Part shown: positions 516 to 2,487 of the stretch, piece by piece | Layout of the letters: every line of letters begins with the position of its first letter | Numbering within the stretch: position 1 is the first letter of the stretch | Origin: an uncultured Chthonomonas sp. | GTDB taxonomy: Bacteria; Armatimonadota; Chthonomonadetes; Chthonomonadales; CAJBBX01 | DNA length: 64,000 nucleotides | Assembly: GCA_903951425.1 (NCBI GenBank) | Contig: CAJBBX010000132.1 | Span: forward strand, 1 to 64,000 | Direction of reading: 5' to 3' | The notes under the pieces: model-generated | The model's database searches: none | What the model was told of the DNA's origin: nothing | What the model saw: only the letters and a program-made list of their open reading frames with translations | Translations under genes and position numbers: made by a program

Positions 516-890
516 CTACTGCTTGCCCAGCGTCTCGTCGACGATCTTCAGCAGTTCGTCGCCGCGGAACGGCTTGGTCATGAAGGCGATGGCCCCGCCC
601 TGCTCGGCCATCTGCTTGTTGGACTGCGACCCATGGGCGGAGAGGAAGATGATGGGGGCGAACATGGTCTTGGCGTTGGCGCGGAGGCGGCGCGCCACAT
701 CGAAGCCCGTACCGCCGGGCATGCTGATGTCGAGGATCACGAGGTCGGGCTCGTCGCGCACCGCAACGTGCATGGCCATGGCCGCATCGGTGGCAAAAGT
801 GACGCCGTAGCCGGCCGACCGAAGCCGCATTGCGACGGCCCGGATGATCTCCTGCTCGTCGTCCACGATCATCACCGTGGCCTTTGCCAT
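516..890 (-). CDS. Single-domain response regulator (CheY-like)
   Basis: This 124-residue protein is a stand-alone receiver domain. The acidic pocket is D10/D11, the phospho-acceptor D54 lies in VILDISMPGG, the switch Ser is S84 (LSAHG), and the conserved Lys is K106 (MTKPF). It has no output domain, so it should act by protein contact or as a phosphotransfer intermediate. The start has GGAGGTGAGGGAT directly upstream. It is the last gene of an apparent Pat-kinase-regulator operon, 103 bp behind the hybrid kinase, and is the obvious candidate partner for that kinase, whose own receiver lacks the normal Asp. Confidence 0.93.
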   Translation of the reverse strand: MAKATVMIVDDEQEIIRAVAMRLRSAGYGVTFATDAAMAMHVAVRDEPDLVILDISMPGGTGFDVARRLRANAKTMFAPIIFLSAHGSQSNKQMAEQGGAIAFMTKPFRGDELLKIVDETLGKQ

Positions 891-993: not shown

Positions 994-2487
994 CTACACA
1001 GGGATACTGAAGCGCTCGCAGACCTTGGCCAGCCCTTCGTCGGCCGACGTGTTGCGCGAGAGTTCAGCGACCGCATACTCCAAGGCCCCGTCCTCCGGGG
1101 CCAGGGCCGCCGACGTACGACCCAGGCCACGCAGCGCCGACATGGCACGCGCCCGGCCCATGGGCATGGCAAACGCGACGAAGCACTCGCATACCGAGAT
1201 GACGCCGTCGCCCGGGCTGTCGAGGGCAGTCCGCATGGCATCGTGGATCGCGACGAGGCTGCGCTCGCGGCGCTCCGGCGCCGCCGAGGCCAGCCCTTCG
1301 GCGTAGACCACCGCCAGCACCAGGGGCGCAGCGCCGGCGCGAACGGTGCGCCAGGTGTCGGTGACCACGGCCTGCAGTTCGGCGCCCTCATGGTAGGCAG
1401 GCAGCGAATAGCCGAACCGGCTACCCTTGCCTGGCTCGCTGGAGACCCATACGGAGCCACCGTGCAGCTCCACCAGCCGCCGCGTGATGGCCAGGCCCAG
1501 CCCTGTGCCCCGGATGCCCGGGCCGGATTCGCGGTCGACCTGCACGAAGGCCTCGAAGACCCGCTCCTGGTCGTGCTCGGCGATGCCGCGGCCCGTGTCT
1601 TCAACCTCCACCCAGAGCAGGTGCTGGTCGAACCCGGGGCGGATCGTGATGGAGCCGCCCTCGGGCGTGAACTTGGTCGCATTGCCCAGCAGGTTCACCA
1701 TCACCTGCTCAATCTTCGCGGCATCGCAGACGGCGTCCGGGAGGCCATCGGGCAGTTCCAGCGTCAGGGTCTGTCCCTTGCCTTCGCACATGGGCCGGAA
1801 ATCGCTGGCGCACTGCCGGAGCAGGGCCGCCATGCTGGTGCGACGGCGATGGAGCTCTGCCTCCTGCCGGCCCAGGCGGGTCATGTCGAGCAGGTCGTTG
1901 AGGAGCTGGGCCAGCCTGTCGCAGTTCCGCTGCGCCGAGGTGAGGCACTCGGTCTGGTCCTGCGTCATCGGCCCTGCCAAGCCGTCGAGGACGAGGGTGA
2001 CAAACTCGCGGATAATGGCCAGCGGCGTGCGCATCTCGTGCGACGCGGTAGCGATGAAATCGGACTTCTGGCGGTCGAAGGCCTGCAGCGTCTCGACGAT
2101 GCCGTGCCGCTCGATGGCGTGGCGGATGCTGCGCGCCAGGGTGACGCCGTCGGTCTGGCCCCTAACCAGGACGTCGTCGGCCCCGGCTTGGATTGCGCGG
2201 ATCGAGCCCGCCTCGTCGTCCTGACGCGACCACACGATGGTGGTCACCTGCGGCGCCTGCCGGCGGACGCGCTGGAGGGTGTTGAGCCCGCGGCTGTCGG
2301 GCAGGTTCAGCTCCAGCAGGGCCACATCGAAGGGCTCCTCGGCGAGGAACTTCAGGGCGTGGGCCAGCTGGCGGACGTGGAGTATCTGGAACTGGCTACC
2401 CGCACGCTCGGCCAGCGCCGTGCGCAGGGCAGCGGCGTTGGCCGGGTCGTCATCTACCAGCAGAATCCGGGTCGGTTCGCCATCCAT
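994..2487 (-). CDS. Hybrid histidine kinase with N-terminal receiver-like domain and degenerate GGDEF-like tail
   Basis: The 497-residue soluble protein has a receiver-like domain at 1-125, HisKA with the phospho-accepting H150 (TASHEMRTPL), and HATPase_c with N box around N265/N269, G1 box DTGRGI at 297-302 and G2 box GTGLGL at 327-332. The receiver keeps D12-D14 and S87, but the phospho-acceptor position is Glu (E59 in LLELNLPD) and the conserved Lys is Arg (R109). Residues 385-497 look like a GGDEF fold by spacing: a LAVVYAEG strand, CECFVAF where RGDEF would stand, then TSADEGLAKVCERF. The signature itself is absent, so cyclase activity is unlikely. No membrane segment is seen. It starts 24 bp after the Pat-like gene and precedes a single-domain response regulator. 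The GGDEF assignment is inference. Confidence 0.9.
   Translation of the reverse strand: MDGEPTRILLVDDDPANAAALRTALAERAGSQFQILHVRQLAHALKFLAEEPFDVALLELNLPDSRGLNTLQRVRRQAPQVTTIVWSRQDDEAGSIRAIQAGADDVLVRGQTDGVTLARSIRHAIERHGIVETLQAFDRQKSDFIATASHEMRTPLAIIREFVTLVLDGLAGPMTQDQTECLTSAQRNCDRLAQLLNDLLDMTRLGRQEAELHRRRTSMAALLRQCASDFRPMCEGKGQTLTLELPDGLPDAVCDAAKIEQVMVNLLGNATKFTPEGGSITIRPGFDQHLLWVEVEDTGRGIAEHDQERVFEAFVQVDRESGPGIRGTGLGLAITRRLVELHGGSVWVSSEPGKGSRFGYSLPAYHEGAELQAVVTDTWRTVRAGAAPLVLAVVYAEGLASAAPERRERSLVAIHDAMRTALDSPGDGVISVCECFVAFAMPMGRARAMSALRGLGRTSAALAPEDGALEYAVAELSRNTSADEGLAKVCERFSIPV

Follow-up and report, generated by a model that had tools for sequence, protein, structure and literature searches.

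The closest described counterpart of the protein considered here is SgmT of Myxococcus xanthus, a histidine kinase with a GAF sensor, a receiver placed between the kinase and the GGDEF domain, and a C-terminal GGDEF domain that combines a degenerate active site with an intact I-site, by which it binds c-di-GMP according to the account in PMC3509222. The kinase encoded in the 64,000-nucleotide stretch of DNA analyzed here (the window) resembles SgmT in being a histidine kinase with an apparent C-terminal GGDEF-type domain whose active site is degenerate. It differs in its N-terminal pseudo-receiver, in the absence of an I-site motif throughout its genus and in the lack of detectable c-di-GMP enzymes in the genome that encodes it; further, neither a GAF sensor domain nor a receiver after the kinase core was found in it, Pfam recovering only the REC-HisKA-HATPase series.

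On the side of the receiver, pseudo-receivers are common and the control of the bacterial ones is called a mystery in PMC12632262. As presented in the same source, ShkA and CikA carry a pseudo-receiver inside the histidine kinase, where it governs autophosphorylation, that of ShkA binding c-di-GMP and that of CikA binding quinones and KaiB. The present pseudo-receiver is likewise kinase-bound, but unlike theirs is N-terminal and, in the structural model, joined to the His-bearing helix by a continuous helix. With the Asp-less receivers (ALRs) and pseudo-receivers described in PMC4395418 and PMC12632262 it shares the match to PF00072, a Glu in place of the Asp and an Arg in place of the Lys; it is set apart from ALRs in general by its location N-terminal to a HisKA kinase. 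ExsG, as portrayed in PMC3899027, also has at its N-terminus a receiver that feeds into the core of the kinase and is soluble, as the present kinase probably is too. However, the receiver of ExsG is phosphorylated on Asp62 and then inhibits the kinase, and ExsG belongs to the HWE family, whereas the core studied here matches HisKA (PF00512) and HATPase_c (PF02518) and no HWE model. Our literature search, which for the most part covered records without full texts, recovered no description of this protein or its domain combination. Both kinds of disarmed domain are already known separately; what is new is that one protein combines them and that it persists in a genus where no c-di-GMP enzymes are detected.

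Architecture and genomic neighborhood of the kinase

The open reading frame lies at the coordinates given in the original prediction, 994-2487, but on the minus strand of this Armatimonadota sequence, and encodes a protein of 497 aa (Table 1). Its Pfam domains span residues 8-108 (Response_reg), 140-206 (HisKA) and 255-364 (HATPase_c). Residues 367-497 match no Pfam family over its cut-off, a sub-cut-off match to MobB (E 0.036) overlapping the start of this stretch, and NCBIfam returns only general kinase models, those listed all falling far below their cut-offs.

Table 1. Features of the kinase gene and its neighbors, in window coordinates
Feature	Coordinates	Strand	Basis
Hybrid histidine kinase, REC-HisKA-HATPase-CT (CT, C-terminal domain), 497 aa	994..2487	minus	ORF list and Pfam
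Pseudo-receiver, residues 8-108 by PF00072	2164..2466	minus	Pfam E 8.6e-18; dN/dS 0.059-0.073, three species pairs
Glu59 (codon GAG) at the phospho-Asp site	2311..2313	minus	KdpE alignment; Glu in 3/3 genus species
Arg88 (codon) at T+1, where Ala/Gly is usual	2224..2226	minus	3/3 genus species; norm from PMC12632262
Val106 (codon) at K-3, where the switch aromatic Tyr/Phe is usual	2170..2172	minus	3/3 genus species; norm from PMC12632262
Arg109 (codon AGG) in place of the conserved Lys	2161..2163	minus	This species only; Lys in both congeners
Predicted continuous helix, residues 114-170, receiver alpha5 to His-bearing helix	1978..2148	minus	AlphaFold2 full-length model, block-mean pLDDT 60-81
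HisKA with phospho-acceptor His150 (ASHEMRTP)	1870..2070	minus	Pfam; His150 invariant in 9/9 aligned rows
HATPase with N265/N269, D297/G299/G301, G327/G329/G331	1396..1725	minus	Pfam E 3.5e-28; motifs invariant in 9 rows
C-terminal domain with predicted degenerate GGDEF fold, residues 364-497	997..1398	minus	AlphaFold2, Foldseek, VIA-align
VCECF, residues 432-436, predicted beta-hairpin turn where GGDEF would be	1180..1194	minus	Model strand positions and sequence
Single-domain response regulator of 124 aa with the canonical Asp and Lys	516..890	minus	Pfam E 4.3e-25
Acyl-CoA synthetase (ADP-forming) fused to GNAT acetyltransferase, provisional start codon	2512..5253	minus	Pfam; 24 bp upstream of kinase

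The core carries the H-E-x-x-T-P signature of HisKA together with the N, G1 and G2 boxes of the ATPase, and its tabulated His, Asn, Asp and Gly residues are all invariant across the nine rows of the alignment; to judge by these residues it looks catalytically intact. Judged in the same manner, both the receiver and the C-terminal signaling domain that flank this core are non-catalytic, in agreement with the earlier view that one protein contains two such domains. The helix predicted to run from the receiver into the His-bearing helix would provide a direct route by which the receiver could control the kinase.

The kinase is found in both congeners, G003 and G002, with 93% and 90% identity, whereas the family's nine other genomes give no match at E<=1e-60. 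Beyond the genus, in searches that scored the best 5 or the best 14 candidates per genome, such that more relatives may exist, the nearest receivers come from G028, G031 and G032 (41-43% identity) and the nearest kinase cores from G100 and G102 (51% and 50%). These different closest relatives of the receiver and the core suggest domain exchange.

Seven loci have the kinase with this type of C-terminal domain, namely those of the three genus members and of G100, G102, G072 and G219. In six of them a response regulator of the same family (35-57% identity) is encoded directly downstream on the same strand; the regulator of G072 lies on the opposite strand, at a distance of one gene. The downstream regulator has no output domain attached and, given this recurrent neighborhood, is the probable target of the phosphate from the kinase. 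The synthetase-GNAT gene precedes the kinase in all three species of the genus, and the three genes might form an operon linking protein acetylation to the two-component pair. The gene at 1-366 on the minus strand, which adjoins those of the kinase and the response regulator, encodes a glycine-rich protein of the RNA-recognition-motif type, its sequence in the congeners being MAKRIYVGSLPYSV...

The receiver-like domain

The receiver is recognized by PF00072, scoring 65 bits where the cut-off is 30.2. Alignment with the solved receiver of KdpE places E59 on the phospho-Asp and R109 on the conserved Lys, and the claim of a Glu at the acceptor position is thereby borne out. The companion claim, of Arg for Lys, holds for this species but is not conserved: the other two of the three species have Lys (AAG), marking it as a species-level change, and we dropped it as a defining feature. 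As for the conservation of Glu59 among orthologs, it is kept throughout the genus, but outside it Asp occupies the site in all eight receivers compared from seven relatives (G028, G031, G032, G102 twice, G072, G100 and G219), including that of G219, which is otherwise degenerate, and that of G100, whose reading frame begins inside the receiver and is incomplete at the N-terminus. Hence, Glu59 is a genus-level change.

The DD pair (D12/D13) and S87 are retained. In the bacterial survey of PMC12632262 the norm at T+1 is Ala/Gly and that at K-3 is Tyr/Phe; the genus has Arg88 and Val106, whereas G028, G031 and G032 have Gly at the former position and Phe, Tyr and Tyr, respectively, at the latter. 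Glu is the commonest residue at the Asp site of Asp-less receivers, at 26% according to PMC4395418, and Lys-to-Arg is given as a common pseudo-receiver change in PMC12632262. Taken together, two residues off the norm and two substitutions usual in Asp-less or pseudo-receivers typify the domain as a pseudo-receiver, for which ordinary phosphorylation would no longer be possible. Its dN/dS in the three species pairs of the genus is 0.059, 0.063 and 0.073, to be compared with 0.030, 0.056 and 0.029 for HisKA, 0.024, 0.065 and 0.062 for HATPase, and 0.188, 0.175 and 0.247 for the C-terminal domain; the values for the receiver denote strong purifying selection and thus a maintained pseudo-receiver.

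For the action of this domain on the kinase the original prediction had offered two options, a receiver locked on or one acting as a constant interaction surface, of which the latter fits better. Locking on by Glu is possible on the residues alone: in many receivers Glu can partly mimic the phosphorylated Asp (PMC12632262), and it is the residue found most often at this site in the Asp-less ones (PMC4395418); S87 and, in two of the three species, Lys109 would still be available to bind its carboxylate; and the ExsG kinase is controlled by the phosphorylation state of its N-terminal receiver (PMC3899027). Yet in all three species V106 stands in for the aromatic residue needed for Y-T coupling and T+1 is occupied by R88, suggesting that the phospho-switch relay itself is probably impaired, Lys109 has given way to Arg in the species at hand, and Glu at the Asp site is, per PMC4395418, often insufficient alone for constitutive activity. 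Moreover, since the phosphorylated receiver of ExsG inhibits its kinase, a mimic could equally mean locked off. We regard a phosphomimetic lock, with Glu59 fixing a phosphorylated-like conformation that keeps the kinase permanently on (or permanently off), as unlikely.

The possibility that the receiver and the C-terminal domain are functionless, decaying remnants, with the kinase working without them, derives some appeal from the C-terminal domain, where constraint is weaker (dN/dS 0.175-0.247) and the catalytic and inhibitory-site residues are gone; it is nevertheless improbable, as the receiver evolves at rates near those of the kinase core, the length of 497 aa and the gene order are unchanged across the three species, and even the dN/dS of the C-terminal domain is still well under 1. 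For the receiver in particular, its dN/dS rules out free decay. We give very little credence to an ordinary hybrid kinase with a weak but true receiver, in which Glu59 or another residue takes the phosphate: the retained D12/D13 pair, S87 and (in two species) Lys109 would suit it, but the Glu at the acceptor site and the Arg at T+1 speak against transfer, and we know of no established glutamyl phosphorylation in any receiver.

The C-terminal domain and its relatives

The proposal of a C-terminal GGDEF fold with a lost signature fared differently by method. Modeled in isolation as residues 364-497 from a seven-row alignment, the domain reached an AlphaFold2 pLDDT of 79.1 and a pTM of 0.71 in the best of five models (pLDDT 79.1, 74.0, 70.9, 50.8 and 49.2). 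A Foldseek search with this model placed GGDEF domains in the top rows, led by that of FimX (E 1.5e-3, TM 0.65), with nothing at E<=0.001 and a transposase and a few other proteins mixed in lower down. A second look with VIA-align gave, among the matches listed, GGDEF proteins in 50 of 50, with Z scores from 12.3 to 9.9 over 121-130 of the 134 residues. In contrast, the full-length AlphaFold2 model leaves this region mostly helical at a pLDDT of 43-62 and does not reproduce the GGDEF fold. Thus, structure prediction upholds the fold for the domain alone and not within the complete chain. Within the genus, neither an Asp at position 59 nor a fold for the isolated domain unrelated to GGDEF, the two outcomes that the original prediction had named as counting against it, was encountered.

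Comparisons at the sequence level do not recover the relationship from the domain of the window itself: when it was aligned with hhalign to 27 canonical GGDEF domains (30 loci minus three whose domain the motif script missed), 44 of 60 shuffles scored as high, and the two congeners and G102 likewise did no better than shuffles. For the single sequences of G219, G100 and G072, respectively, no more than 1, 2 and 0 of 60 shuffles scored as high, with the correct register against GGDEF in the first two but not in G072. Profile-profile comparison with the same 27 domains gave a probability of 0.5% for the seven-row alignment and 4.3% for the four rows outside the genus; the best PDB profile match of the alignment (E 0.62) was among unrelated proteins, and Pfam recognized no family in the C-terminal domain of any of the four relatives.

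The inhibitory-site motif supplies a different line of evidence. In three of the four relatives outside the genus (G100, G072 and G219) the Arg and Asp of RxxD precede the hairpin residue by exactly 13 and 10 positions, as they do in 24 of the 27 canonical GGDEF domains, and the motif is absent from G102 and from all three genus members; the hairpin was anchored by profile alignment in G100, G072 and G219 and by eye in G102 and the genus. With composition shuffles that treat the four domains as independent although they are homologs, RxxD in three of four was attained in 0 of 20,000 trials at the exact position and in 6 of 20,000 with three residues of slack. We consider it distinctly unlikely that the domain is no descendant of GGDEF but merely a common alpha/beta arrangement with RxxD by chance. 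Such a view could point to the lack of a sequence-profile match for the window and to the full-length model; against it stand the structural matches listed, all of them to GGDEF domains and covering nearly the whole domain, the exact register of RxxD in the distant relatives, and the hhalign scores of G219, G100 and G072, albeit with the wrong register in the last.

With VCECF at the turn that would hold GGDEF, neither catalysis nor a canonical inhibitory site is expected, and an active cyclase is ruled out by this turn together with the lack of any PF00990 match in the genome at E<=10. In the relatives, by analogy with SgmT and its RHPD version of the motif (PMC3509222), which three of them in as many other genomes likewise keep in RxxD form, the C-terminal domain may have bound c-di-GMP through RxxD. 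The wider kinase family looks SgmT-like; since the genus member lacks the I-site motif, it is a derived variant of the SgmT type and not a member.

A genome search with the C-terminal domain (997-1395) gave matches outside the genus of E 0.0035 or worse. Another 16 genomes gave weak matches (E 6e-5 to 0.1), which we left out of the set of relatives; most of the frames inspected were unrelated, and one weak hit, compared with Pfam alongside the four relatives, proved to be an ordinary PF00990 protein. Scattered kinases with the same GGDEF-like C-terminal domain, for which there is no Pfam model, form a small set found in four genomes (L057, L058, L059 and L060) of three other Armatimonadota families, each with the same type of response regulator nearby.

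c-di-GMP machinery of the genus and a proposed explanation

The genus is sampled by three species (G000, G002 and G003), all draft genomes of 5.6-6.1 Mb and 98-100% completeness, with G000, the source of the window, comprising 6.08 Mb in 188 contigs. GGDEF (PF00990) is detected at E<=0.001 in 276 of 291 Armatimonadota genomes, including all nine others of the family; the three genus genomes yield no match even at E<=10. PilZ and HD_5 are likewise absent from all three, and EAL exceeds its cut-off in none, a lone weak match of 23 bits in G000 being below it; the survey covered these four domains. The association of I-site and messenger is not strict, as G102 has lost RxxD yet has seven GGDEF matches in its genome. 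GGDEF is also lacking in G028, whose REC-kinase is the nearest among those without this C-terminal domain.

We consider it rather probable that the protein is an orphaned SgmT-like c-di-GMP-receptor kinase with a phosphorylation-independent N-terminal pseudo-receiver, an intact core and the downstream response regulator as its acceptor. Briefly, a soluble hybrid kinase would hand phosphate from its HisKA-HATPase core to the regulator encoded just downstream. Its pseudo-receiver, bearing E59, R88 and V106 (and here R109), would no longer be switched by phosphorylation of an Asp and might instead present a phosphorylation-independent regulatory surface, binding a protein or a ligand or possibly holding a fixed phospho-like state, which would be read out through the single helix leading from receiver alpha5 into the His-bearing helix. 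The ancestor of the C-terminal domain would be a GGDEF domain that was already without catalysis when the family spread and that served in the relatives as a c-di-GMP receptor through RxxD. In the genus devoid of detectable c-di-GMP machinery the RxxD site would have been lost too, and the domain would now be under weaker constraint, with a role in structure or interaction. The more specific historical scenario, in which a receptor kinase outlived the loss of c-di-GMP in its lineage, the C-terminal domain without its I-site was reused for interaction or ligand binding, and the receiver lost control by Asp, is put forward tentatively and with considerable doubt.

If that scenario is true, the kinase is run by two former switch domains, neither of which uses its original signal, in a genus from which the cyclases, phosphodiesterases and PilZ receptors are gone. 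A kinase of only 497 aa, with a pseudo-receiver fused to the His helix, an apparently intact core and a probable partner encoded next to it, offers a simple system for the question of Glu as a phosphomimic. Likewise, relatives with the I-site motif set against a genus without detectable c-di-GMP enzymes provide a natural test of what becomes of a receptor domain after the loss of its messenger.

The genus is in itself a case of apparent loss of c-di-GMP signaling in large genomes. Within the same family, G007, G008 and G009 (genera g5 and g6) have one GGDEF each and no EAL, PilZ or HD_5; they are possible intermediates, and the loss may have been stepwise.
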